DNA from: Fodinibius sp. Rm-B-1B1-1
GTDB taxonomy: Bacteria; Bacteroidota; Rhodothermia; Balneolales; Balneolaceae
Assembly (NCBI RefSeq): GCF_038594945.1
Contig: NZ_JBCFYD010000001.1
Coordinates: 1,116,001-1,180,000, forward strand
Length of the DNA stretch: 64,000 bases
Direction: 5' to 3'
The position numbers were made by a program, and so were the translations under genes. Below the pieces are notes generated by a model. It did not search any database, was not told the origin of the DNA, and worked only from the letters and a program-made list of their open reading frames with translations. Of the stretch, positions 7,781 through 59,890 are shown piece after piece; position 1 is the first letter of the stretch; each line of letters opens with the position of its first letter.

Positions 7781-7875
7781 TGTCATGCTGAATTTATTTC
7801 AGCATCTGTTGCAAGGAGATCCTGAAGCGAGATCAGGATAGTCGAATTAGAAATTCGCGTAAATTTAACATGACA
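7781..7875. repeat. REP-like compound palindrome (TGTCATG...CATGACA)
   Basis: An outer inverted repeat TGTCATG (7781-7787) / CATGACA (7869-7875) encloses two further hairpins: GCTGAA/TTCAGC near 7788-7804 and ATCCTGA/TCAGGAT near 7820-7838. Similar TGTCATGCTGAA...TTCAGCATCT elements are dispersed between genes in many Bacteroidota genomes. Here it fills the gap between topA and the next gene and may also act as a transcription terminator. The nested palindromes are seen directly; the family link is from recognition. Confidence 0.7.
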
Positions 7876-7906: not shown

Positions 7907-8476
7907 ATGGAAAAACAGTCAGATACATACTTTAGTTATCCGCCCAATTTACACGAGTTGGATTTGGCTACGTTGGTTTCGATGTACCGTGATCGGGGCA
8001 TCCCCAAGAAGGCCAAGCCCGGGGAATACTTTGCATGTACTGTTACTAATAGGCTCATCAAAGAGGGAAAATGGTGGTTTGGCCGGTATTATAGTCAAGA
8101 TGCTTGGAATGACACTTTAAGTCGAAGTTCGGAGGGCTTTCCACTTACCGAAGTTGAAATGAATGTCCTTGGCTTGGTATATGCTGCAGATGATCAACCC
8201 CCTCGGCGCGATTATGTAGAGCAAAATTGTGGTGCCGTAAGCAAGCTTGCTTATATGATTGTGAATGATCTCAAAGAGTTTGGCTTTTTGTCGCTGGATG
8301 ATCATGAGCGCCTGCTTATTACACCTCGTGGTGAAAAGGCGTTACAGGGCATTGCCAAGAAAATTTATGGCAAAAAGTTTAAGCCGAATATGCTCAAAGT
8401 TGAGCAGGGAGAGATTGCGAATCCGAAGATAGAAAGAGCGCCCAAAGAAGATAGCGAGCAAGCCAATCTGTTTTAG
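7907..8476 (+). CDS. Conserved hypothetical protein, possible winged-helix
   Basis: I do not recognise a named family for this 189-residue soluble protein. It has no signal peptide or membrane segment. The middle (about residues 80-145: LTEVEMNVLGLVYAADD, then KLAYMIVNDLKEFGFLSLDD, then LLITPRGEKAL) reads like a winged-helix DNA-binding fold with a C-terminal wing. The tail (KIERAPKEDSEQANLF) is charged and probably disordered. Codon use matches its neighbours, so it is likely a real gene. It is flanked on both sides by short palindromic repeats. Confidence 0.7.
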   Translation: MEKQSDTYFSYPPNLHELDLATLVSMYRDRGIPKKAKPGEYFACTVTNRLIKEGKWWFGRYYSQDAWNDTLSRSSEGFPLTEVEMNVLGLVYAADDQPPRRDYVEQNCGAVSKLAYMIVNDLKEFGFLSLDDHERLLITPRGEKALQGIAKKIYGKKFKPNMLKVEQGEIANPKIERAPKEDSEQANLF

Positions 8477-8513
8477 GGTCTTCTTTCTTACCAGTTTAAG
8501 CCATCACCCCGTA

Positions 8514-8602
8514 GTGATTTCGAACGGAGCGTAGAGATAAATCTATGTTCTGTTTTCAACCTTCACTTAAAACAAAGATCTCTCCCTGCGGTCGAGATGA
8601 CA
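8514..8602. repeat. Inverted-repeat element R1 of the 'TTTCGAgcG..GAGAaATCT' family
   Basis: The left arm (8514-8544, TGATTTCGAACGGAGCG then TAGAGATAAATCT) and the right arm (8574-8602, AAAGATCTCTCCCTGCGG then TCGAGATGACA) are imperfect inverted copies around an AT-rich spacer. The right arm closely matches that of R3 at 9122-9151. Elements of this consensus are scattered through Bacteroidota genomes. Confidence 0.7.
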
Positions 8603-8634
8603 GTTAAGTTATGAGTTCCATTACTTTTTTGAGT

Positions 8635-8663
8635 TGTCATTTCGAGTGTAAATGAGAAATCTT
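8635..8663 (+). repeat. Solo arm R2 of the same repeat family
   Basis: TGTCATTTCGAGTGTAAATG followed by AGAAATCTT matches the left arm of R3 (9064-9096) in the same orientation. No inverted partner follows, so this is a half element. It lies about 80 bases upstream of the GIY-YIG start. Confidence 0.65.
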
Positions 8664-8740
8664 AGTTATTTTGAATAAATGTGTAAGGATTCAGCTTCTC
8701 TTTGATCTTACTGTCTATACTTCAATTCACAAGAGGCAGA

Positions 8741-9057
8741 ATGCCTTATTACGTTTATATTACGATTAACCCCGGAAGAACAACGTTATATATTGGAATA
8801 ACGAATGACCTTGCTGAGCGGCTTAAAGATCATGAGAAAAACAGGGGAGAAGGGGAGACCGCAAAACATTTGCCGGACGCTACTATTGCTATAAGCTGAT
8901 TTATTACGAAGCGTATAAAACAGCTCAAGAAGCCATAGAACGAGAGAAAGAATTAAAGAAATGGCGCCGCGAGAAAAAAGAAAAATTGATTAATGAAGTT
9001 AACCCTGAGTGGGAGTTCCTTAATTATAAAGATGATTTCCGAGTTGGAAGGATTTAA
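8741..9057 (+). pseudogene. GIY-YIG nuclease family protein, frameshifted
   Basis: The ATG at 8741 opens MPYYVYITIN, then LYIGITNDLAERLKDHE, the GIY-YIG core with its conserved Arg. The frame then runs into a stop at 8897-8899. From about 8860 the -1 frame continues the family without a break: KTFAGRYYCYKLIYYE, AIEREKELKKWRREKK with the catalytic Glu, then NPEWEFLNY, stopping at 9055-9057. One missing base between about 8850 and 8860 explains the shift; no canonical slippery heptamer is visible. The full protein would be about 105 residues, normal for the YhbQ-like group. It lies between repeats R2 and R3, which suggests a nuclease-associated mobile repeat unit. A sequencing error is the alternative. 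Confidence 0.8.
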
Positions 9058-9063
9058 TTTTCA

Positions 9064-9151
9064 GGTCATTTCGAGCGTGAGCGAGAAATCCTTGTTTTGC
9101 TTTCACTTATTAATTTGTAACAACAAAGATCTCTTTCTGCGGTCGAGATGA
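9064..9151. repeat. Inverted-repeat element R3, directly after the GIY-YIG remnant
   Basis: The left arm (9064-9096: GGTCATTTCGAGCGTGAGCG then AGAAATCCTTGTT) and right arm (9122-9151: AACAAAGATCTCTTTCTGCG then GTCGAGATGA) form an imperfect hairpin around an AT-rich loop. It starts seven bases after the stop of the GIY-YIG remnant. R3 is the best-preserved full copy in the window. Confidence 0.75.
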
Positions 9152-9186
9152 GAAATGTTTGATATTAATTTATAATCAGTAATATA

Positions 9187-9284
9187 GCTGTCACTTGGAG
9201 TGTAGCAAAGGGGAATGAGAAATTTGTGTTTCAGAAGTGGGGCAAGCTCTGAAGAAAAGGTCTTTTACTTATGCTCGAGATGAT
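9187..9284. repeat. Degenerate inverted-repeat element R4
   Basis: Decayed arms of the same family: GCTGTCACTTGGAGTGTAGC near 9187 (with AATGAGAAATT further on) and GAAAAGGTCTTTTACTTATG then CTCGAGATGATG near 9253-9284. Several substitutions break the pairing, so this is an older copy. Confidence 0.45.
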
Positions 9285-9385
9285 GAAATGATTGGATTCT
9301 AAAAAGCTTCATTTTATTTATTCTAAGCTGTCATAACCCGGAAAATGATTAGTATTCAAAAAGATGCGCATGTTTTGAATAAAAG

Positions 9386-9437
9386 ATAGGCATGATTTGG
9401 GAAAAATATGCTTATGTTTTTATTAGATCATGCCTAT
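9386..9437. repeat. 11-bp perfect inverted repeat, 30-base spacer
   Basis: ATAGGCATGAT (9386-9396) and ATCATGCCTAT (9427-9437) are exact reverse complements. They lie in a gene-free tract between R4 and R5. No poly-T tract follows, so an intrinsic terminator is unlikely. Function unknown. Confidence 0.5.
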
Positions 9438-9458
9438 GGTCTAATTAGGTTACTTGTT

Positions 9459-9498
9459 TGTCATGCTAACAAAGACCTTTCACGTGTGTTAGAGATGA
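9459..9498. repeat. Degenerate single arm R5 of the repeat family
   Basis: TGTCATGCTAACAAAGACCT followed by TTCACGTGTG and TTAGAGATGA resembles the right arm of R3 (AACAAAGATCT...TCGAGATGA) with several changes. It completes a gene-poor tract from 8477 to 9578 that otherwise holds only the GIY-YIG remnant and related repeats. Confidence 0.4.
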
Positions 9499-9528
9499 GG
9501 TATAAAGAAAATATATACCATCAATAAA

Positions 9529-9578: not shown

Positions 9579-11471
9579 TCAGTTTTGGATGGGATTCAAA
9601 TACTCATCCATCTCAATAACATTGTTATCACGATTGATATCAGCCATTCGTTTTGTAGGATCGATCTCAATCTTTTGAATTTCACTTGGAGAACGCTCAA
9701 TTTCTACTGTATACGTTGGATTCACCCACGGCCAATCCCTTTTGATAGTACGTGGGGTATCCGGATTTTCATTCGGTTTTTCATTCTGCATAATGCGCAT
9801 TGGAATGTAAAACTGCTCCTTGCTTCCATCCTGATACGTAACCATTAAGTCAATAGGCATGGGCATTAAGTCCTCACGCTTTAGCGTTACATAAGTCGAT
9901 CCTTCAACACCTAAAACCGAGTTGATGCCATAATCGATATGCTTGGTGCTCTCGATGAAATATTGGTAATACCAATCGAGCACCATATCAGACTCTTCCT
10001 CCATCACGCGCAGAAAATCCCGCCCATCAGGGTGTTTAAACTTCCACTCATTGAAAAAGGTTTTCATACCCTGATCAAAAGTCTCACCGCCAATAATATA
10101 GCGCAGTTGATTTAAGAATATCGCACCGGTTGAATAGGAAGCCGTTCCGTAAGCGCGGTTTGTATGGAAGTGATCGGCATGGGTGTCGAGCGCTTCTTGT
10201 TTACCATCTTCAATAATACTGTAATACGATTGATAGGAGCGTTCGTGCAGATTTTTTCCTTGTCCACCATTGAATAACTGATCCATGACTATTGAAGAGG
10301 CATAGGTTGTAAATCCTTCATCAAACCAAGGATAGCGGCTTTCGTTATTTGCCAAAACGCCTTGATACCAGGCATGAATAAGCTCGTGAACCGATACGCC
10401 TACTAAGCTGCCAAACGAACGATTACCCGTAATGAGCGTGCCCATGGGATATTCCATGCCGCCGTCGCCCCCCTGAATAAAAGAGTACTTATCATAGGGA
10501 TACTTCCCAAAGTGCTCGTTCATATATTCAAAAGCTTGCACTGCATACTCTGGTAGACGTTCCCAGTTTTGGCGTAGCTGCTCTTGTGAGTATCGGTCAG
10601 CATTAACAGCTACCGTATCTTGTTGGTAGAAGAAATGGAGCTTAGTTCCATTGGAAAGTTCAGCTTTGGTATGCGTAAAATCCGGATCAGCACCCCACAT
10701 AAAGTCGTGTACGTTATCCGCTTTCCAGTGCCACGTTAGTTTTTCGGAATCGGGACGGTCGTAGTCATCAGCATAACCGTGTCCAATTTCCTCGGGATTT
10801 TGCAGATATCCGGTTGATCCCATCACGTACGAGCTGTCGATAGCAATTTTTACATCAAAGCTGCCCCACACACCGTGAAATTCACGCCCGATATATGGAT
10901 TGGGATGCCATCCATCCTCATCATACTCCGAAAGTTTGGGATACCATTGACTCATCGAAAACTCAACACCTTCTTTATTCATCCAGCCACTGCGTCGAAT
11001 TTGTCGTGGAACCTGACTCTCAAACTCCATGTCAAAAACAGCAGTTTCACCGGGTGCTATAGGATCGTTAAGGGTAACCTCCATGATCGTGCCATCTACC
11101 GTATACTGCACAGCATCACCATCTTGTGCAAGGCTGTTAATATGATGGTAGCCAATTTCATCGTCCGGCAACTTTTGAATGCGATCACGCACCCGGCTGT
11201 CGGGATCTTCGATAGTTCGCGAACGGACATCCATCATGCTATTCGGTTGAAAGGCATTAAAATACAGGTGGTAGAATACCCGGTGCAGCGTATCGGGAGA
11301 ATTGTTGTGATACGTCAACTTTTGGGTACCGGTAAACTGATGGTTTTCGACATCCACATCAATATCCATCTCATATTCCACCTTTTGCTGCCAGTAATTT
11401 TCGTCCTGGGCTTGGGCAGAAAATGAAATCCCCAAAAAAAGTAGCGGTAAAAGTAGATGTTGTAATTTCAT
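9579..11471 (-). CDS. M1 family metallopeptidase, exported
   Basis: This 630-residue protein has an N-terminal signal peptide (hydrophobic residues 4-20, cleavage likely after AQA). Residues about 28-270 form the M1 N-terminal beta domain. The catalytic part has GGDGGMEYP (the GxMEN-like exopeptidase motif, here MEYP) at 334-342, the zinc motif HELIH at 362-366 and the third ligand Glu at 385 in WFDEGF. It should act in the periplasm or at the outer membrane as an aminopeptidase or peptide scavenger. It is a single-gene unit closed by the terminator at 9529-9555. Confidence 0.93.
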   Translation of the reverse strand: MKLQHLLLPLLFLGISFSAQAQDENYWQQKVEYEMDIDVDVENHQFTGTQKLTYHNNSPDTLHRVFYHLYFNAFQPNSMMDVRSRTIEDPDSRVRDRIQKLPDDEIGYHHINSLAQDGDAVQYTVDGTIMEVTLNDPIAPGETAVFDMEFESQVPRQIRRSGWMNKEGVEFSMSQWYPKLSEYDEDGWHPNPYIGREFHGVWGSFDVKIAIDSSYVMGSTGYLQNPEEIGHGYADDYDRPDSEKLTWHWKADNVHDFMWGADPDFTHTKAELSNGTKLHFFYQQDTVAVNADRYSQEQLRQNWERLPEYAVQAFEYMNEHFGKYPYDKYSFIQGGDGGMEYPMGTLITGNRSFGSLVGVSVHELIHAWYQGVLANNESRYPWFDEGFTTYASSIVMDQLFNGGQGKNLHERSYQSYYSIIEDGKQEALDTHADHFHTNRAYGTASYSTGAIFLNQLRYIIGGETFDQGMKTFFNEWKFKHPDGRDFLRVMEEESDMVLDWYYQYFIESTKHIDYGINSVLGVEGSTYVTLKREDLMPMPIDLMVTYQDGSKEQFYIPMRIMQNEKPNENPDTPRTIKRDWPWVNPTYTVEIERSPSEIQKIEIDPTKRMADINRDNNVIEMDEYLNPIQN

Positions 11472-50098: not shown

Positions 50099-50535
50099 TT
50101 CTACGTGGGATCATAGATTTAAGCTTAGTACCTGATGAAAAAACCTTTATTCTGGTAACTGATTGATGATAGCTATTTATATATATGCAATAAAAAAAAT
50201 AATTAGTTTATCACCAATAAAATTCATCACAGGTTATGTTACTTGGTCCATGAATAATTTCCTTCCTAAACTTTGAACAGCGACTTGTTTTTTCTGGTGC
50301 GGTAGATGACCACTTTATTGACGAATATGAGCCCTTTTTGTATTCGTTTACGTATTTGATTACCTGGAGGTACTGTTTCGGCTATTTATCTAATTGTAAT
50401 GAAACGCTATCCATTATCTCATATAAGCTACGAGTAGATGTTTTTATCAGGATACCAGAACTGGAGAGTACCAGCCAATTCTAAACTGGATTGGGTATCG
50501 AATAAGAGAATAGGTTATAAGTTTAAAATAATATC
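50099..50535. promoter_or_regulatory. Divergent intergenic region between the sigma factor and the lipoprotein array
   Basis: This 437-base AT-rich tract must hold the promoter of the sigma-kinase operon (minus) and that of the first lipoprotein gene (plus). No ORF was recognised. Near its right end, leader A (50501-50537) contains TTATAAGTTTA, a partial match to the Bacteroidota -7 element TAnnTTTG; the promoter call is tentative. Confidence 0.5.
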
Positions 50536-50537
50536 AT
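50501..50537 (+). repeat. Leader A, copy 1 (upstream of lipoprotein gene 1)
   Basis: The 37 bases ending just before the start codon are identical to 54409-54445, upstream of gene 3. They begin AATAAGAGAATAGGTTATAA and end AATATCAT. Upstream of this block the two leaders differ, so it is a discrete shared module. Confidence 0.85.
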
Positions 50538-50538
50538 G

Positions 50539-52179
50539 ATGAGACGACTAACAGCACTACTTACCGTACTAACAGTAACAAGTTTAATCTTATGGTCTTG
50601 TGGAGGGGATTCGGGTACTGGCCCCGACCCTGACAATGCCAACAATGAAAATGAAGAAGCTACAACCTATACGGTTTCGGTAAATATGACTCCATCGGAT
50701 GCAGGGACCATATCACCTTCCGCGGATGATACTTACGAAGAAGGCGAAGAGGTTGAAGTACAGGCGAATCCCAATGACGAATATCGGTTTATCGATTGGA
50801 CAGGAGATGTAGAGAGTTCAGATAACCCTCTATCGCTTGTTGTAGACCAAGACTATTCGCTGACGGCTAATTTTGAAAAGAAAAGCTATGCTCTGACGAC
50901 TAATACCGAAGGGGAAGGGGCCATAGATGAAAATGTGGTTCAGAAAAAGTCAACCGATTACGAGCACAGCACGGTGGTAGAACTAACGGCTAATCCCGCT
51001 GACGGGTGGAAATTTGTAGAGTGGACCGGAGACGTGACCGGCACCGGTAATCCACAGCAGGTCACCGTGGACAGCCCCAAAGAAGTGACGGCCGTCTTTG
51101 AAAAAAAGAGCTATGAGCTTACGATTAATAAGCAGGGAGAAGGGGCCGTGGCCGAAGAGGTGGTGCAAGCCAAAAGCTATGAACACGGCACGGTTGTAGA
51201 TTTGACCGCTAACGCTGCTATTGGGTGGACGTTTTCTGAATGGCAAGGTGACCTGACGGGTAATAGTAATCCAGAGAAAATCACTATCGATAGGGCCAAA
51301 GAGGTAACGGTTGTGTTTGAATCGAAGCCATTTTATGTGTCATCGAATGGAGTAACTATTATTTGTGATGTGGCCAGTGTGGGCGATACGGGCACGATTA
51401 ACGGCACCACGTACACCAAGCGCAACAAGTCCCAGATCACTCCGGCCAATGCCCCGACGACTTGTACGTCCGGTATCACGGATATGAGTAATTTATTTAA
51501 TGGCGCCGGCTCTTTTAACGGAGATATCAGCCATTGGGATGTGTCCAGCGTGACAGATATGCAGGCTATGTTTATGAGTGCCACTGATTTTAACCAAGAT
51601 CTTAGTAGTTGGGACGTGTCTGGGGTAACGAATATGCGATCAATGTTTAATGGAGCTACACCCTTCAACCAGGATCTCAGTGGTTGGGACGTGTCTAGCG
51701 TGACAGATATGCAGACTATGTTTATAAATGCAGAATCCTTTAACGGAGATCTAAGTAGTTGGGATGTCTCTGCTGTAACAGATATGAGAGCAATGTTTGT
51801 GGGAGCTACTATTTTTAGCGGAGATATCAGTAGCTGGAATGTTTCCAGTGCAAATGATATGGCATATATGTTTCAGGATGCAAAAGCATTTAATGGTGAT
51901 ATCAACAGTTGGGATGTTAGCAGTGTCACACAAATGCATAAAATGTTTGACGGTGCAGGGTCATTCAACCAAGATCTTAGTGACTGGGATGTATCAAATG
52001 TGACTACCATGGCTGGGATGTTTCGGGATGCTTCCTCCTTTAACCAGGATATCAGCGGATGGTGTGTGGAGAATTTTGATTCAAAGCCATCAGATTTTGA
52101 TGATGGTGCCGGTTTTGAAGGCGATGACGATCCGGATACTGGGAAGCAGCCGGTCTGGGGAACCTGTCCCGGTAACTAG
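50539..52179 (+). CDS. Array lipoprotein 1: InlB-like repeats plus BspA/DUF285 repeats
   Basis: A secreted lipoprotein of 546 residues. The signal [21 protein letters not shown] carries the lipid-modified Cys, followed by a Gly/Asp/Pro-rich linker. Three InlB-B-like modules of about 70 residues follow (each with ELTANP-like, WTGD and ANFEKK/AVFEKK), then a two-cysteine cap (ICDVASVGDTG, TTCTSGITDM), seven full DUF285 repeats ([19 protein letters not shown]) and a C-terminal cap with WCV and WGTCPGN. A preceding ATG (50536) is in frame, but paralogues start at MRRL. Likely a surface adhesion or ligand-binding protein; the ligand is unknown. It shares an 84-base identical block with gene 5. Confidence 0.9.
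   Translation: MRRLTALLTVLTVTSLILWSCGGDSGTGPDPDNANNENEEATTYTVSVNMTPSDAGTISPSADDTYEEGEEVEVQANPNDEYRFIDWTGDVESSDNPLSLVVDQDYSLTANFEKKSYALTTNTEGEGAIDENVVQKKSTDYEHSTVVELTANPADGWKFVEWTGDVTGTGNPQQVTVDSPKEVTAVFEKKSYELTINKQGEGAVAEEVVQAKSYEHGTVVDLTANAAIGWTFSEWQGDLTGNSNPEKITIDRAKEVTVVFESKPFYVSSNGVTIICDVASVGDTGTINGTTYTKRNKSQITPANAPTTCTSGITDMSNLFNGAGSFNGDISHWDVSSVTDMQAMFMSATDFNQDLSSWDVSGVTNMRSMFNGATPFNQDLSGWDVSSVTDMQTMFINAESFNGDLSSWDVSAVTDMRAMFVGATIFSGDISSWNVSSANDMAYMFQDAKAFNGDINSWDVSSVTQMHKMFDGAGSFNQDLSDWDVSNVTTMAGMFRDASSFNQDISGWCVENFDSKPSDFDDGAGFEGDDDPDTGKQPVWGTCPGN
50860..50943 (+). repeat. 84-bp block identical to 58401-58484 (gene 5)
   Basis: I compared the two stretches base by base and found no difference over 84 bases, starting CTGACGGCTAATTTTGAAAA and ending AATGTGGTTCAG. 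Flanking sequences diverge. This junction spans the end of one InlB-like module and the start of the next. Confidence 0.9.
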
Positions 52180-52198
52180 CTTAATTTTTTCAAATTCA
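52096..52198 (+). repeat. 3' tail module, copy 1 (end of lipoprotein gene 1)
   Basis: The 103 bases covering the last codons ([19 protein letters not shown]), the stop and about 20 bases beyond match 54272-54374 with one mismatch. A third copy with more changes lies at 57901-58004. Confidence 0.85.
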
Positions 52199-52224
52199 TA
52201 TTCCGACCTATGGTAAATCGGGTT

Positions 52225-52269
52225 GGCATCACATGAGAATACAGATTAAAATTTTCAAAAATTTATCAT
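52225..52269 (+). repeat. Leader B, copy 1 (upstream of lipoprotein gene 2)
   Basis: Forty-five bases, beginning GGCATCACATGAGAATACAG and ending TTTATCAT, are identical to 58031-58075 upstream of gene 5. Genes 1 and 3 carry a different leader (A). Confidence 0.85.
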
Positions 52270-52270
52270 A

Positions 52271-54355
52271 ATGAGACGACTAACTGCACTACTTACCATA
52301 CTGATATTCACAGGATTAACACTGGTAGCCTGCGGAGGCGACTCCGGGACGGGCCCCGATCCGGGTAACGGAGATAATGGCGATAACGTAGACGACCCGA
52401 CTACATATACCGTTGAGGCCTCAGCGGCCGAGGGGGGTACGGTGTCTCCTTCCGGGGCCAATGACTATGAAGAAGGGGAAACCGTAGAATTGACAGCCGA
52501 CCCCAACGACGAATATCTGTTTTCAGGGTGGACGGGTGATATGGAAAGCGAAGACAACCCACTGTCGCTTACGGTAGACCAAGACTATTCGCTAACGGCA
52601 AATTTTGAGCTAAAAAGCTATGAGCTCACCATTAATAAGGAAGGTGATGGCAGCGTTAGCGAAGAAATTGTGGAGGAAAAATCCAAAAAATATGAGCATG
52701 GTACGGTTGTAGAACTCACCGCCAATCCCGCCGAAGGGTATAAATTTGTCGAATGGAAAGGGGATGTGGAAGGCAGCGAAAATCCGGCTCAGATTACCGT
52801 GGACGACCCAAAAGAGGTAACAGCCGTATTTGAGAAAAAAAGTTATAACCTTACGGTAAATACAGATGGTGATGGGGCCGTTGCCGAAGAGGTAGTACAA
52901 CATAAGTCCACGGAGTACGATCATGGTACGGTTGTGGAATTAACCGCGAATGCCGGGAATGGGTATAAATTTGTGGAATGGACCGGAGATCTGACAGGAA
53001 ATGATAACCCTGCTCAAATAACAGTGGATAAGGCGAAGAAAGTTACTGCTGTTTTTGAGAAGAAAGAGTACAAGTTAATGGTCGATACATCTGGTGACGG
53101 ATCGGTGTCGAAGGATCCCGATCAATCTACATACGAGTATAATACAGAGGTAGAACTCACCGCAAATGCTGCCGAAGGATATAAATTTGTAGAGTGGCAA
53201 GGTGCCATGACAGGATCTGAAAATCCTGAAAAACTGCAAATAAATGAAGAAAAGGAAGTGACGGCGGTATTTGAGTCAACCTTTTATATGGCATCCAATG
53301 GAGTAACCGTAAAGTGTGAAGACGCCAGCGTAGGGGAAACTGGGACGGTAAACGGAGATACTTATACCAAACGTAGCGCCGATCAGATTACTCCCTCCAA
53401 TGCCCCGACGACTTGTACCTCCGGCATTTCCGATATGAGCAATTTATTTGATGGTGCCGGCTCTTTTAACGGAGATGTCAGCCATTGGGATGTGAGCAGT
53501 GTAACTAATATGAAGTCGATGTTTAAAGATGCCAGTTCCTTCGACCAGGATATTGGTGCCTGGGATGTGTCTGGTGTAACCAAGACGAGTAATATGTTCT
53601 CTAACGCTGATTCCTTTAATCAAGATATCAGCAGTTGGGACATCAGTAGCGTAACGGATATGCATGGAATGTTTCAGGATGCTACCATCTTTAATCAGAA
53701 TATTGGCAATTGGAATGTCTCTTCAGTAACGAATATGAGAAGGATGTTTAATGGTGCCAGTTCCTTTAACAGTGATATTGGCAGCTGGGACGTCAGTAGT
53801 GTAACAACTATGCAAGAGATGTTTTGGGGTGCTTCATCGTTCAACCAAGATATTGGCAGCTGGGACGTATCCAGCGTAACCAGTATGGAAAGCATGTTTG
53901 CTGGTGCTAACTCCTTCAACCAAAATCTTAACAATTGGAATGTGTCCAATGTAACAGATATGCGGGCTATGTTTGACTCTGCCGATTCATTTGATAGTAA
54001 TATTTCCAGCTGGGCTGTGGGGAGCGTTACCGATATGAGCAAGATGTTTGAGGGTGCAAGCTCCTTTAACGGAAATATCAGCGGCTGGGATGTCAGTAGT
54101 GTAACGAATATGGGAAGTATGTTTTGGAGTGCTTATGCCTTTAACCAAGATATCGGCAACTGGGACGTCAGCAATGTAACTAACATGTATGGTATGTTTA
54201 ATTATGCCATTACTTTTAACCAAGATATCAGCAGCTGGTGCGTATCTAATATTTCTTCCAAGCCTACTAGATTTGATGATGGTGCCGGTTTTGAAGGCGA
54301 TGACGATCCGGATACCGGGAAGCAGCCGGTCTGGGGAACCTGTCCCGGTAACTAG
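52271..54355 (+). CDS. Array lipoprotein 2: InlB-like repeats plus BspA/DUF285 repeats
   Basis: At 694 residues this is the largest in the array. Signal [21 protein letters not shown] with the lipobox Cys at residue 21. Four InlB-like modules follow (ANFELK, AVFEKK, AVFEKK and AVFEST ends), then the two-Cys cap ([22 protein letters not shown]), ten DUF285 repeats (for example [20 protein letters not shown]) and the C-terminal [10 protein letters not shown] cap. Its tail is nearly identical to that of gene 1. More repeats are present here than in genes 1, 4 and 5. Role as for gene 1: extracellular binding, ligand unknown. Confidence 0.9.
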
Positions 54356-54374
54356 CTTAATTTTTTCAAATTCA
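54272..54374 (+). repeat. 3' tail module, copy 2 (end of lipoprotein gene 2)
   Basis: It matches 52096-52198 over 103 bases with one mismatch (C for T in the GATAC/TGGG stretch). It is followed by an imperfect inverted repeat beginning GATGCTGACC and ending GCATC. Confidence 0.85.
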
Positions 54375-54408
54375 GATGCTGACCTATGGTAAATCGGGCT
54401 GTGCATCA

Positions 54409-54445
54409 AATAAGAGAATAGGTTATAAGTTTAAAATAATATCAT
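54409..54445 (+). repeat. Leader A, copy 2 (upstream of lipoprotein gene 3)
   Basis: These 37 bases are identical to 50501-50537 in front of gene 1. Here the leader follows directly on the tail/inverted repeat of gene 2, which shows a modular junction. Confidence 0.85.
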
Positions 54446-54446
54446 T

Positions 54447-55952
54447 ATGAGACGACTAATTGCACTATTTACCGTACTAACGTTCACAGGATTAATACTG
54501 TTGTCATGCAGCGACTCCGGTACCGGACCCAGTTCGGATAACGGAGATAATGGTGGCGATGGTAGCGATGAAACCACCACCTACACTATGGATGTTACTA
54601 TATCGCCATCAGAAGGTGGTTCAGTTTCTCGGTCAGCCGATGGGCCGTATGACGAAGGTGAAACCGTAGAGCTCACCGCCGAGTCCGCTGAAGGCTATGG
54701 TTTTGTGGAGTGGCAGGGGGACCTATCCGGCACCCAGAATCCCGAAGAAGTTACCATGGACGAGTCTAAAGAGGTAACAGTGGTGTTCGAGGAGAAGCCA
54801 TCCTTTTATCTGGCCTCCAACGGGGTAACCGTTATTTGTGATGCTGCTTCCGTCGGTGACACTGGCACGGTGGAAGGCGTCACGTATACCAAACGTACCG
54901 CCGATCAGATTACCTCGGATAACGCTCCTACAACCTGTACCAGCGGCATCACAGATATGTATTCTATGTTCCGGGATTCCACGGACTTTAATGGCGATAT
55001 AAGCACCTGGGATGTGTCTGGCGTAACCAATATGATGCGCATGTTTTATAATGCCGGATCTTTTAACCAGGATATCAGTTACTGGGATGTATCTGCTGTA
55101 GAAACGATGAGAAGTATGTTTTGGGATGCTGATAACTTTGACCAGGATCTCAACAGCTGGGATGTGGGCAATGTTAACCGTATGGATTATATGTTTAGAT
55201 CCACTCCTTTTAACGGAAATATAAGCAGCTGGGATGTTTCTTCTGTTGCGAATATGCAAGACATGTTTCATGGTGCTATATCCTTCAACCAGGATATCGG
55301 TGACTGGGATGTTTCCGGTGTAGAAGATATGGCATCCATGTTTCTGAATGCTGAATCCTTTAACCAAGATCTCAACAGCTGGGATGTGGGTAACGTAAAA
55401 AGTATGGCCGACATGTTTAGAGATGCCACTTCCTTTGACGGAAATATAAGCGATTGGGACGTCAGCAGCGCCATGTATATGAATAGAATGTTTTCCGGGG
55501 CCACCTCTTTCAATCAGGATATCAGCGGCTGGGATGTAGGCAGTGTTACCAATATGAGACGCATGTTTTTTGAGGCTACGGTTTTTGACCAAAGTCTCAA
55601 CAGTTGGGATGTCTCCAAAGTAGAAGATATGAGTCAGATGTTTTATCGGGCTTTCAGCTTTAACCAAGACCTTAGCGACTGGGATGTCTCCAGCGTAACT
55701 GATGTGAGCGGCATGTTCGCCGGTGATAGTCAAGGAAGCTCATCCTTTGATGGAGCTCTCAGTGGCTGGGATCTATCAGGTATATCTGCTAAGGAAGATA
55801 TGGAAACAATGTTTTATAACGCTGATGACTTTAACCAAGATATCAGCGACTGGTGCGTACCAAATATTTCGGAAAAACCTGCTGGTTTTTCATCGTTCAG
55901 TGGGCTTGCAGAAGAACACGAGCCAGTGTGGGGAACCTGTCCCGGATCGTAG
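54447..55952 (+). CDS. Array lipoprotein 3: one InlB-like module, eleven DUF285 repeats
   Basis: This 501-residue lipoprotein has signal MRRLIALFTVLTFTGLILLSC with lipobox Cys 21. Only one InlB-like module follows (SVSRSADGPYDEGETVEL to VVFEEK), then the two-Cys cap (VICDAASVGDTG, TTCTSGITDM), eleven DUF285 repeats (SWDVGNVKSMADMFRDATSF and others) and a C-terminal cap with a different ending, WGTCPGS. It has the highest DUF285 to InlB ratio in the array. The signal and first module are almost the same as in gene 5. Its 3' tail does not belong to the tail family of genes 1, 2 and 4. Confidence 0.9.
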   Translation: MRRLIALFTVLTFTGLILLSCSDSGTGPSSDNGDNGGDGSDETTTYTMDVTISPSEGGSVSRSADGPYDEGETVELTAESAEGYGFVEWQGDLSGTQNPEEVTMDESKEVTVVFEEKPSFYLASNGVTVICDAASVGDTGTVEGVTYTKRTADQITSDNAPTTCTSGITDMYSMFRDSTDFNGDISTWDVSGVTNMMRMFYNAGSFNQDISYWDVSAVETMRSMFWDADNFDQDLNSWDVGNVNRMDYMFRSTPFNGNISSWDVSSVANMQDMFHGAISFNQDIGDWDVSGVEDMASMFLNAESFNQDLNSWDVGNVKSMADMFRDATSFDGNISDWDVSSAMYMNRMFSGATSFNQDISGWDVGSVTNMRRMFFEATVFDQSLNSWDVSKVEDMSQMFYRAFSFNQDLSDWDVSSVTDVSGMFAGDSQGSSSFDGALSGWDLSGISAKEDMETMFYNADDFNQDISDWCVPNISEKPAGFSSFSGLAEEHEPVWGTCPGS

Positions 55953-56022
55953 AAAGTAGATTAATAATATACCGTGCCGGTCACATCAGATAGGCTGGTA
56001 CAAATCAAAAAATATCAATCAA

Positions 56023-57984
56023 ATGAGACGACTAACTGCACTACTTACCATACTGATATTCACAGGAATCATGTTGGCCTGCGGAGATTCGGGCACCGGC
56101 CCCGACCCCGACAACAATGAAAATGAAGAAGCTACAACCTACACAGTTTCGGTAGATATGACGCCATCGGATGCGGGAATGGTATCCCCGACAACAGAGG
56201 AGACCTATGAGGAGGGCAAAGAAATTCAGCTGCTGGCCAATGCTAAAGATGAGTATGTATTTACTGGCTGGAGCGGGGATATGGAAGGAGATGTGAATCC
56301 GCTACCCTTAACCGTGAGTCAGGATTTTAATCTCACGGCCAATTTCGAGCTCAAAAATTATGATCTGAGTACTGACGTAGAAGGAGAAGGCTCGGTTCAG
56401 GAGAATGTGTTGGAGCAAAAATCCAAAGAATATAAGCATGGTACAGCGATAGAATTGATTGCGACTCCAGCCAAAGGCTATAAGTTTGTTGAATGGAACG
56501 GGGATGAGACCGGTACGGATAACCCAATGCAGATTACCGTGGATGATCCCAAAGAAGTAACAGCCGTTTTTGAAAAGAAGAGCTACAAGTTGGCCGTTAC
56601 CACCAATGGAAGCGGAGCGGTTTCGGAGCAGGTGGTATCAAAAGCCAAGGGCTATGAGTACGGGGATGTCGTAGAGCTGTCCCCCAGCGCCGCCGAAGGG
56701 TGGACATTTGTTGAATGGAGCGGCGACCTCTCGGGTTCGGATAATCCCGCCCAAGTTACCGTTGATGCGGCCAAGGATGTAACCGCCGTATTTGAACGCA
56801 AAACATTTGCTCTGGCCCCTGATATTCAGGGCGAAGGCAGCGTCGCCAAAGATCCCGACCAGACCGAATACAAATATGGTGAAAAGGTAATCCTGACGGC
56901 CGAGCCCAACAATAACTGGTCCTTTAAAGAGTGGGCAGGTGAAATTTCCGGCACGACGCCCGAAATAACTGTCACGGTGTATTCGGAGCGAGATATTACG
57001 ACCGTCTTTGAAGAGAAACCTCTGTTTTATTCAGCCCAAAATGGATATACCGTAGTATGCCCGGAAGCCGATCCCGGCCAGAAAGGCTTTTTAAACGGTG
57101 ATCCGAATGGCAAGCAGTATGAAGCCGTGGACCGGGCCATGCTGGTAGAAAAGATTGAAAACGACGAGGATGTGACCCGGGTTTGTACAACTCCCGTTAC
57201 GGATATGTATAATTTATTTGGTGGTCTTTTTGGTGATCCAGTCACGTTTAATCAGGATATTGGCCAGTGGGATGTAAGTAATGTAACCGATATGAATCGA
57301 ATGTTTTACAACGTAACAGACTTTAATCAAGATCTAAATAGCTGGGACGTGAGCAGTGTCACGAATATGTATAGAATGTTTCTTGATGCTTCATCATTTA
57401 ACCAGGATATCAGTGGCTGGGATGTTAGTAGCGTAACTAATATGAATTTTATGTTTAGTGGTGCCGAGGACTTTAACCAAGATATCAGTAGTTGGGATGT
57501 CAGTAATGTGGAGGGGATGAGTTATATGTTTCGCGATAGCAATTTCAATAGGGATATAAGCGATTGGGATGTCAGTAGCGTAACCGATATGTCCTGGATG
57601 TTTTTTAATGCCAGTTCGTTCAAACAAGATATTGGCAGCTGGGATGTATCTGCAGTAACTACTATGCGATATATGTTTCATGAGGCTTCATCCTTTAACC
57701 AAGATATTGGTAACTGGGACGTCAGCAATGTAACTGACATGCACGGTATGTTTGAGGAGGCCACATTATTCAACCAAGATATCAGCAGCTGGAATACCTC
57801 GGCAGCAACCACTATGGACAAAATGTTTAAGAATGCTTCCTCTTTTAACCAGGATATCAGCAGCTGGTGCGTTTCAAAAATTGATTCAAAGCCATCAGAT
57901 TTTGATACCAATGCCGGTTTTGAAGGCGATGACGATCCGGATACCGGGAAGCAGCCGGTCTGGGGAACCTGTCCCGGTAATTAG
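56023..57984 (+). CDS. Array lipoprotein 4: four InlB-like modules, eight DUF285 repeats
   Basis: This 653-residue protein has signal [20 protein letters not shown] (Cys 20). Four InlB-like modules (ANFELK, AVFEKK, AVFERK, TVFEEK ends) lead to a divergent cap ([31 protein letters not shown]) with an insertion before the second cysteine. Eight DUF285 repeats ([14 protein letters not shown] onwards) and the [10 protein letters not shown] end follow. The cap differs most from the other copies, so its ligand-facing surface may differ. It has neither leader A nor B, only a shorter AT-rich leader. Confidence 0.9.
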
Positions 57985-58004
57985 CTTAATTTTTTTCAAA
58001 TTCA
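57901..58004 (+). repeat. 3' tail module, copy 3 (end of lipoprotein gene 4)
   Basis: Same module as 52096-52198, with a changed first few bases and one extra T in the T-run after the stop. It is followed by an inverted repeat GATGCC (58005-58010) / GGCATC (58031-58036) with further CCC/GGG pairing inside, overlapping leader B of gene 5. Confidence 0.8.
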
Positions 58005-58036
58005 GATGCCGACCCATGGTAAACCGGGCTGGCATC
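58005..58036. repeat. Inverted repeat at the tail/leader junction of genes 4 and 5
   Basis: GATGCC-GACCC on the left pairs with GGGCT-GGCATC on the right, with one mismatch and one G-U pair. Related sequences lie at 54375-54407 (GATGCT...GCATC) and in degenerate form after gene 1. It could be a terminator without T-run or a recombination site. Confidence 0.6.
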
Positions 58037-58075
58037 ACATGAGAATACAGATTAAAATTTTCAAAAATTTATCAT
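58031..58075 (+). repeat. Leader B, copy 2 (upstream of lipoprotein gene 5)
   Basis: Identical over 45 bases to 52225-52269 in front of gene 2. Gene 5 then begins like gene 3 (MKRLIALFTVL), so leader and coding start come from different lineages. Confidence 0.85.
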
Positions 58076-58076
58076 T

Positions 58077-59567
58077 ATGAAACGACTAATTGCACTATTT
58101 ACCGTACTAATTTTCACAGGATTAATACTGTTGTCATGCAGCGACTCCGGTACCGGACCCAGTTCAGATAACGAAGGCAATGGCAATAACAGTGAAGGCG
58201 AAACTACCTACAGTGTGGACGTTAGCATATCGCCATCAGAAAGTGGTTCAGTTTCTCGGTCAGCCGATGGGCCATATGACGAAGGGGAAACCGTAGAGTT
58301 GACGGCCGAGGCCAGCGACGAATATCTGTTTTCAGGGTGGACGGGTGATATGGAAAGCGAAGACAACCCTCTATCGCTTACTGTAGACCAAGACTATTTT
58401 CTGACGGCTAATTTTGAAAAGAAAAGCTATGCTCTGACGACTAATACCGAAGGGGAAGGGGCCATAGATGAAAATGTGGTTCAGGAAAAATCCAAAGAAT
58501 ATGAGCATGGTACGGTTGTAGAACTCACCGCCAATCCTGCCAAAGGGTATAGGTTTGTCGAATGGAAAGGGGATATCGAAGGATCAGATAATCCGGCTCA
58601 GATTACCGTGGACGATCCGAAAGATGTAACAGCGGTATTTGAGAAAAAAAGCTATGAGCTGACTATAAACACCGAAGGAAAAGGAGCGGTAAACGAAGAA
58701 GTTGTCCAAAGTAAATCGTACGATCATGGTACGGTTGTGGAGTTGACCGCGAATGCCGGGAATGGGTATAAATTTGCAGAATGGACCGGAGATCTGTCTG
58801 GCAGTGATAATCCGTCCCAAATAACCGTCGATAAAGCCAAGGAAGTGACGGCTGTTTTTGGAAAGAAAAGTTTTGCATTGACTACAAATACAAGCGGAAG
58901 CGGTTCGATTACAAAAACGCCCGATCAGTCAACGTATGAATATGAAACGACTGTCGAGTTGGAGGCGACACCTGCTGACGGATATAAATTTGTGGAATGG
59001 ACCGGGGACAAAGCCAGTACTGATAACCCTGTTGAAATAACTATTGATGCCGAAAAAATAGTAACAGCGGTATTTGAGGAAACACAAGCAAAATTCTATT
59101 TGGCTGGAAATGGGGTTACCATAAAATGTGAGGAAGCCAGTGTAGGCGAATCCGGAACAGTAAATGGTGATGAATATATTAAACGTACCGTCGACCAGAT
59201 TACTACAGACAATGCTCCAACTACTTGTACTAGCGGGATCACGGATATGAGCTCTTTGTTTGAGGGAGCTGACTCCTTTAATAGAGATATCACCCACTGG
59301 GATGTATCTGAGGTAACCCGCATGAACCGCATGTTTACTGGTGTTGATCTATTTAACCAAGATATAAGCTATTGGGATGTGTCCAGTGTTAAAAACATGG
59401 ATAGGATGTTTTGGCTTGCCAGTGACTTCAATCAAAATCTCAGCGGTTGGTGTGTAAAGAACATTGGTGCAACAAAGCCCGATGACTTTGATGTCGGGAC
59501 ACATGATGATTTTGAAGGCAATATTAATAAGCTGCCGGATTGGGGTGCTAAGTGTTCCGGTTCATAG
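58077..59567 (+). CDS. Array lipoprotein 5: four InlB-like modules, only two DUF285 repeats
   Basis: This 496-residue lipoprotein starts MKRLIALFTVLIFTGLILLSC (Cys 21). Its first module begins like gene 3 (SVSRSADGPYDEG), continues like gene 2 ([20 protein letters not shown]), and then joins a block identical in DNA to gene 1 (58401-58484). Three more InlB-like modules follow, then the cap (IKCEEASVGESG, TTCTSGITDM), just two full DUF285 repeats and a shortened C-terminal cap (GWCVKNIG, WGAKCSGS). The N-terminus is thus a visible mosaic, and the repeat region is reduced. Still a complete frame. Confidence 0.9.
   Translation: MKRLIALFTVLIFTGLILLSCSDSGTGPSSDNEGNGNNSEGETTYSVDVSISPSESGSVSRSADGPYDEGETVELTAEASDEYLFSGWTGDMESEDNPLSLTVDQDYFLTANFEKKSYALTTNTEGEGAIDENVVQEKSKEYEHGTVVELTANPAKGYRFVEWKGDIEGSDNPAQITVDDPKDVTAVFEKKSYELTINTEGKGAVNEEVVQSKSYDHGTVVELTANAGNGYKFAEWTGDLSGSDNPSQITVDKAKEVTAVFGKKSFALTTNTSGSGSITKTPDQSTYEYETTVELEATPADGYKFVEWTGDKASTDNPVEITIDAEKIVTAVFEETQAKFYLAGNGVTIKCEEASVGESGTVNGDEYIKRTVDQITTDNAPTTCTSGITDMSSLFEGADSFNRDITHWDVSEVTRMNRMFTGVDLFNQDISYWDVSSVKNMDRMFWLASDFNQNLSGWCVKNIGATKPDDFDVGTHDDFEGNINKLPDWGAKCSGS
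58401..58484 (+). repeat. 84-bp block identical to 50860-50943 (gene 1)
   Basis: No difference over 84 bases from gene 1, although flanking sequence diverges. The two copies are about 7.5 kb apart. Confidence 0.9.
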
Positions 59568-59672
59568 AATAAGTAAAACAGAATTACCAACCATTCGTTG
59601 ATAATGTTCAAATGCATATGGTGTAGTCATCGGAACCCGGCAGGATCCGAAAAATGCCACAAACGTAGTTTT

Positions 59673-59890
59673 ATGAGTATCAGGAGACTTCATTTAGTAG
59701 CAACATAAGTCTATGGGATGTCAGCAGTGTGGGAGATATGAGTAATATGTTTAAAGATGCTTCTGTCTTTGGTGGAGACCTCAGCGAATGGTGTGTTGAA
59801 GATATTCCAGATGAACCGAGTGGTTTTTCGGACGGTAGTGCTTTAACAAGTACTAAAATGCCAGACTGGGGTGATTCCTGTGGCTCATAG
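59673..59890 (+). pseudogene. Remnant of a sixth array lipoprotein
   Basis: The frame through 59699-59890 encodes SNISLWDVSSVGDMSNMFKD, then a second repeat end (GGDLSEWCVEDIP) and a C-terminal cap with WGDSCGS and a TAG stop. That is one DUF285 repeat plus the terminal cap. An ATG at 59673 opens MSIRRLHLVAT in another frame and stops at once; it loosely recalls the MRRL signal start, so signal and tail may have been joined by a deletion. No full-length gene is possible. Confidence 0.75.

Follow-up and report, generated by a model that had tools for sequence, protein, structure and literature searches.

A frameshifted GIY-YIG nuclease gene among CGTC-type REPs: evidence for a candidate mobile pair of repeat and nuclease

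The window analysed here is a 64 kb stretch of contig 1 (1116001-1180000) from a genome of 3.4 Mb. Near its start a small, broken GIY-YIG gene sits among palindromic repeats, between a gene for a 189-aa protein and a convergent gene for an M1-type peptidase. This raises the question of whether the gene and the repeats are related, and of whether a nuclease of this kind could be what moves the repeats. The features of the locus are listed below in window coordinates.

7782..7843 (no strand assigned): R1, a REP dimer of a different stem type, GTCATGCTGAATTTATTTCAGCATCT ... AGATCCTGAAGCGAGATCAGGATAGTC; the type is dispersed, with 46 copies in the genome.
7907..8476 (+): conserved 189-aa gene after topA; outside the element, an anchor for orthologous sites.
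8514..8601 (no strand assigned): R2, a CGTC-type REP dimer with outward tags, GTGATTTCGAACG...AAATCT / AAAGATCTCTCCCTGCGGTCGAGATGAC; from repeat search and folding.
8636..8662 (+): R3, a single REP, GTCATTTCGAGTGTAAATGAGAAATCT, just 5′ of the gene; from repeat comparison.
8741..9057 (+): solo GIY-YIG nuclease gene, frameshifted; both halves match PF01541 and orthologues are intact.
9065..9152 (no strand assigned): REP dimer directly 3′ of the gene, GTCATTTCGAGCGTGAGCGAGAAATCC ... AACAAAGATCTCTTTCTGCGGTCGAGATGAG; from repeat comparison and folding.
9190..9284 (no strand assigned): degenerate REP dimer, GTCACTTGGAGTG ... TATGCTCGAGATGAT; folding no better than that of shuffled sequences.
9459..9499 (no strand assigned): R5, a weak REP remnant, GTCATGCTAACAAAGACC ... 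GTTAGAGATGAG; from repeat comparison.
9579..11471 (-): M1-type peptidase gene; convergent anchor on the other side, outside the element.

The nuclease gene is about 102 codons long. It starts with an ATG at 8741 and meets a stop at 8899; the rest of the domain is in another frame, which ends with the stop at 9055-9057. There are two PF01541 matches on contig 1 (1124747-1124911 and 1124842-1124982), one for each half of the gene. The reading frames, these matches and the repeat copies confirm the initial annotation of a frameshifted GIY-YIG gene within a cluster of palindromic repeats. Intact 102-aa orthologues are found in the congeners G002 and G008 (loci L066 and L059), beside the same peptidase gene. 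In both of these genomes the 189-aa gene is split off from the nuclease-peptidase block. A REP remains at the break in G002, where part of R2 is kept after the 189-aa gene and is followed by other genes (window 8476-8520 compared with L119), and this junction reads as a rearrangement breakpoint at the REP. At the window locus the gene is present in G005, where it also looks damaged, G009 and G010 have repeats without the gene, and G001 has neither gene nor repeats. We think it probable that what remains at the window locus is one copy, now in decay, of a mobile unit made up of a gene for a small GIY-YIG nuclease with a single domain and the CGTC-type REPs that bound it.

The repeats around the gene had been described as copies in the same direction. 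This is true of one arm of each: the copies at 8636-8667 and 9065-9096, which are 429 bp apart, have 81% identity. The unit, however, is a dimer with outward tags (GTCAT..ATCT - AGAT..ATGAC). The opposite arm is found at 8571-8600 and 9122-9151 with 93% identity, and there is a degenerate copy at 9254-9283. The 12-mer GTCATTTCGAGC occurs 11 times in the 64 kb when up to 2 mismatches are allowed, and 5 of these occurrences are within 8514-9284. The repeats had also been described as dispersed. This holds for the R1 type but not for the window type, which is rare: at up to 3 mismatches its 26-mer has only 2 copies in this genome, both at the window locus, and the R1 type was therefore taken for genome-wide work. 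R1 is a strong double hairpin (z = -3.5); the window-type stem (GTCATTTCGA) is imperfect and folds weakly better than shuffles. The R1-type helix has 8 pairs, of which the first, A-T, is retained in 52/54, and double changes occur at the inner pairs, with 19 double-change cells against 3.2 expected. This covariation shows that the repeat is constrained as a hairpin. Of the R1-type sites in this genome that were examined, most consist of two outward-tagged units at a distance of 60-87 bp, and the two stems usually differ.

Two other arrangements of repeats were seen. On contig 2 of this genome (L325, about 337-348 kb) there are four window-type tags on one strand, spaced 3-5 kb apart, of which three are near-identical 47-nt forms (GTCATTTCGACCGGAGGCTG...). 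A similar one-strand set is present on contig 2 of G002, and the L325 series resembles a cassette array. The main repeat block of the window is elsewhere, at 50475-59800, and is a long run of related genes made from 75-bp tandem repeats in the style of BspA/DUF285.

GIY-YIG genes were gathered from this genome and 57 relatives, and 83 solo genes were analysed with flanks of up to 10 kb. An exact repeat of at least 13 nt is common to both 400-bp flanks in 69% of the 83 solo genes, compared with 1.3% of places picked at random from the same stretches. In a tree the solo genes form three well supported groups: UPF0213-like genes, nearly all of which are without flanking repeats; genes at tRNA 3′ ends and other direct repeats; and 42 genes beside palindromes (the REP class), where the sequence of the window gene places it. 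REPs were detected with a 5-bp outer-stem rule and with random places as controls. There is a REP within 260 bp of 40 of the 42 REP-class genes but of only 2 of the 15 UPF0213 genes, the level at random places being 14%. This genome has a third solo GIY-YIG gene, at 1448.8 kb on contig 2 (L005:1465-1780), which is degenerate with an internal TAG and beside which no such REP was seen.

The association extends well beyond the family. A cross-phylum sample, drawn with a narrow profile query as the 18-sequence profile was too diverse for a scan of the collection, gave 74 loci from Clostridia, Chloroflexi, Proteobacteria, Cyanobacteria, Ignavibacteria, Planctomycetes, Patescibacteria and others. 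A REP is present within 260 bp at 70 of these (random places, 16%) and at 9 of 10 named replicons (random places, 13-16%), where the matches in Rhizobium tumorigenes and Sinorhizobium K101 are counted but weak. Most of the cross-phylum repeats have mismatches within the stem and so escaped a strict finder of hairpins with 8-bp stems. When the hexamers within 250 bp of the 42 REP-class genes are ranked by enrichment, with no motif preset, TGTCAT comes first (65 against 9.7 expected). It is also the top hexamer at the 74 cross-phylum loci (276 against 22 expected), and there is no TGTCAT enrichment beside UPF0213 genes. The link between single GIY-YIG genes and repeats that the initial annotation had proposed thus stands up to a statistical test, with REPs at 95% of genes against 14-16% of random places and no such excess for UPF0213 genes. 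The data show that gene and cognate repeats co-occur across many bacterial phyla.

What are these repeats? Beside REP-class genes their general form is GTCAY-stem...RTCT, with a stem that varies by clade. Judged by this form, they belong to the CGTC (or TGTC) class of REPs, which was defined in the 2013 survey of Di Nocera et al. and includes Neisseria dRS3 and Rickettsia RPE-4/RPE-6 (PMC3733652). As in that class, there is an unpaired terminal CGTC or TGTC tag (CGTCATCCCCGCG.. and others beside the genes of the named replicons), a stem of 8-9 bp that opens with a paired A and T (as in the R1-type helix), a short loop and an intergenic location. Head-to-head heterodimers are frequent in both, and predominate at the R1-type sites of this genome, and both occur in Bacteroidetes and Proteobacteria. 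Many stems found here (TTTCGA..., with longer spacers) fall outside the form of the four surveyed families. The survey concluded that CGTC REPs 'apparently lack a dedicated transposase'; it sought transposases only and named no associated gene (PMC3733652). Consistent with this, none of the Y1_Tnp genes of the genus is flanked by such repeats. The suggestion that this is a poorly described class of repeat can therefore be given a precise sense: CGTC REPs, as described in 2013 without a transposase (PMC3733652).

In contrast with the class as surveyed, the repeats found here have a consistent partner, the GIY-YIG gene. Genes of this kind have canonical CGTC REPs on their flanks in Sinorhizobium, Rhizobium, Azospirillum, Sphingobium, Aeromonas and Neisseria, and the repeats beside the GIY-YIG genes of Sinorhizobium meliloti, Azospirillum lipoferum and Neisseria gonorrhoeae have the same form as CGTC REPs. 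Sinorhizobium meliloti, Azospirillum lipoferum and Neisseria were all covered by the 2013 survey (PMC3733652). The REP-flanked genes are annotated as 'GIY-YIG nuclease family protein' in Azospirillum lipoferum 4B, Sinorhizobium meliloti, Rhizobium sp. CIAT894 and Spirosoma, and as excinuclease in Sphingobium; in Aeromonas caviae and Neisseria gonorrhoeae they are unannotated. No REP was found near the gene of Novosphingobium aromaticivorans, another species of the survey, on the plasmid examined.

The stem of the repeat evidently follows the clade of the nuclease and not the host genome. Among genes from different genomes, stems are shared (at least 8/9 bases) by 0 of 254 pairs with less than 40% protein identity and by 80% of pairs with at least 70% identity. 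When orthologous and tandem copies are removed, the values are 1% at low identity and 76% at high identity. When repeats were shuffled among genes of the same genome, the observed correlation was reached 15 times in 1000 once orthologous and tandem copies had been left out, and 3 times in 1000 before that; this within-genome test is significant but not overwhelming. There is no common neighbour gene in 41 of 46 close gene pairs from different genomes, so the match of stems is not due to inherited position. Among 92 genomes of the family, at least 5 cognate repeats are present in 17 of the 18 with a close CCTGAACTTG-type nuclease and in 11 of the other 74, at a cut-off (best E <=1e-32) that was picked after the table had been seen and in a comparison that ignores kinship. 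At a preset E of 1e-20 the values are 22/32 and 6/60. In G006 perfect copies of the repeat occur only where they flank genes, and in G021 there are two close copies, which are the pair flanking the gene. The relation also works in reverse: among the matches listed, all 6 inward-facing R1-type pairs 420-550 bp apart enclose a GIY-YIG gene, one of which is frameshifted, had not been listed previously and was found only by this spacing rule. The flanking repeats face inwards in one clade and outwards in others, and any single cutting scheme must accommodate both orientations.

We then compared sites between relatives. This genome contains an intact element (contig 2, 186 kb), which is arranged as REP-gene-REP over about 430 bp and is common to G002 (this genome is labelled G000 in the comparison of the two filled sites). 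The corresponding site in G003, G008 and G010 is 104-132 bp long and has neither repeat nor gene, and in G004 there is an apparent single fused repeat, which looks like a scar. The repeats therefore came or went with the gene. The initial annotation had proposed a search for empty sites; at the intact element the search succeeded, but at the window locus the outcome was mixed, relatives having gene and repeats, repeats alone or nothing. The differing sites in relatives and the repeat-free empty sites show that the REP-gene-REP unit is mobile as a gene unit. A search for target-site duplications at the two filled sites, whose flanks are too diverged for a clear comparison, gave a 6-bp candidate at one of them only. 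In L063 (G001) and in L081 and L086 (G028) there are exact or near-exact tandem duplications of the whole GIY-YIG-plus-repeat unit, about 395-540 bp long. A phage origin was rejected, as there was no match among 50,697 phage records.

Orthologous pairs of REP-class genes have pN of 0.07-0.17 and pS of 0.66-0.85. As pN is well below pS, intact copies are maintained as proteins, and REP-class genes, including the orthologues of the window gene, are under purifying selection. Y8, Y18, G20, R28, H32, E65 and N84 are invariant in 18 REP-class proteins. The class has the GIY/YIG-like motifs, the catalytic R and E and the conserved N of the GIY-YIG family; the window copy is frameshifted.

In a sister class, solo GIY-YIG genes immediately follow tRNA genes (L074:9722-10265 on the minus strand, L294, L297, L304, L305 and others). 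Its subclades are each found at one tRNA (Gly-gcc, Ser-gct, Asn, Met, Leu or Val), the 3′ half of the tRNA and the terminator are duplicated 3′ of the gene, and tandem copies occur. There are empty sites in G004 and G008, and decayed remnants in G005 and near 260.7 kb on contig 1 of this genome. This looks like a tRNA-targeted mini-element and supports site-specific action of solo GIY-YIG enzymes.

Solo GIY-YIG enzymes are, on this comparative evidence, the first good candidates for spreading CGTC REPs. Repeat and gene probably form a pair of non-autonomous and autonomous mobile elements, analogous to REP/RAYT systems but with a different nuclease. The initial annotation had suggested such a relation with the GIY-YIG nuclease as possible mover; the association and the repeat-free empty sites support it, and the enzyme may be what cuts and moves the repeats. 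The nuclease would recognise its own hairpin, whether extruded from the duplex as a cruciform or formed in single-stranded DNA during replication, and might nick at or near the unpaired GTC tag, next to the first A-T pair of the stem, which is nearly invariant. Repair of the break by copying would spread REP dimers, which would be non-autonomous passengers; more rarely, it would carry along the gene together with its two flanking repeats. Genes would later decay and vanish and the repeats persist, as appears to have happened at the window locus. A point against the proposal is that many cognate repeats are found without a recognisable partner gene in G101 (73), G080 (45; genome incomplete) and G009 (23), so that repeats outlive the gene or do not need it.

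Alternatively, the GIY-YIG gene could be a homing parasite that targets REPs, inserts beside or into existing copies and duplicates its target, the REPs being spread by other means. The tRNA-associated class also feeds this explanation, since at tRNA genes it behaves in this way: the tRNA 3′ half is duplicated, and relatives have sites that are empty or decayed. Repeats far exceed genes (46 to 1 for the R1 type in this genome), and there are repeat-bearing genomes without the gene. However, the empty sites of the intact element contain no repeat, no other mover was found, and the only close copies in G021 are those flanking the gene. Stems also change with the nuclease clade, and a parasite whose target repeat evolved independently would need to keep pace with such changes. 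Both the empty sites that have no repeat and the match of stem to clade speak for the nuclease as mover rather than for homing into REPs spread otherwise, and we regard homing as possible but rather unlikely.

A further alternative is that REP nests are simply tolerant intergenic zones that gather any small mobile gene, with no functional link. Against it, neither UPF0213 genes nor Y1_Tnp genes are enriched beside the repeats in these genomes. REPs are indeed intergenic and mutually clustered, and some nests are without a GIY-YIG gene, but a match between stem and clade, and between the stems of the two flanks, would not be expected of passengers. The clade-specific pairing largely refutes this explanation, and we consider it highly improbable. 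Least probable of all is that RAYT (Y1) transposases move the repeats, as they do GTAG REPs, and that the GIY-YIG link is secondary. An association with RAYTs is known for other classes of REP (PMC2817692, PMC3733652), and Y1_Tnp genes are present in 6 of 12 genomes of the genus. This genome, however, has no Y1_Tnp gene and yet has its 46 R1-type repeats, and G004, G006 and G008, also without one, have 21, 12 and 30 repeats. None of the Y1_Tnp genes of the genus is credibly flanked by REPs, and the 2013 survey likewise found none for these REPs (PMC3733652). A RAYT was rejected as the mover for this genus because Y1_Tnp genes are absent from these four repeat-bearing genomes and unflanked elsewhere.

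The system of GIY-YIG gene and CGTC REPs resembles GTAG REPs and REPINs with their RAYT (TnpA-REP) in its short tagged hairpins, its dimers and its clade-specific pairing: one or a few enzyme genes are flanked by their own type of repeat, which matches their clade, and the gene decays whereas the repeats persist. It differs in its tag, which is GTC(A) and not GTAG, and in its enzyme, a GIY-YIG nuclease where REP/RAYT systems have an HUH/Y1 transposase. As the partner is a PF01541 protein and there is no Y1_Tnp gene in the genome, it is not a REP/RAYT system with respect to the enzyme. Like free-standing GIY-YIG homing endonucleases, it consists of a single nuclease gene that would act as a selfish element at specific sites; unlike them, it is flanked by a dispersed repeat family rather than placed in one allele, has no intron and has no recognition domain beyond the domain of 95-110 aa. 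The closest solved structures by sequence are of the UPF0213/YhbQ type (PDB 1zg2, 1ywl; E = 2e-11), which has the same size and fold family but is a separate clade without such repeats beside its genes.

No report of a link between GIY-YIG genes and REPs was found in the open full-text literature; as far as that literature shows, the repeats are already known and the partner is new. On balance, the evidence tilts slightly towards CGTC-type REPs across bacteria being non-autonomous copies of a system powered by single-domain GIY-YIG nucleases that recognise hairpins. In that case, and we lean only a little towards this as well, the system would be the first REP mover other than an HUH transposase, previously unrecognised. 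CGTC REPs are widespread in bacteria, and their 2013 description ended by asking what moves them (PMC3733652). A clade-matched nuclease partner in many phyla makes this question directly testable. If the proposal is correct, it would explain many genes annotated as 'GIY-YIG nuclease family', some of which are called excinuclease or hypothetical, as parts of mobile elements, and GIY-YIG enzymes would gain a mode of spread beside homing and restriction.
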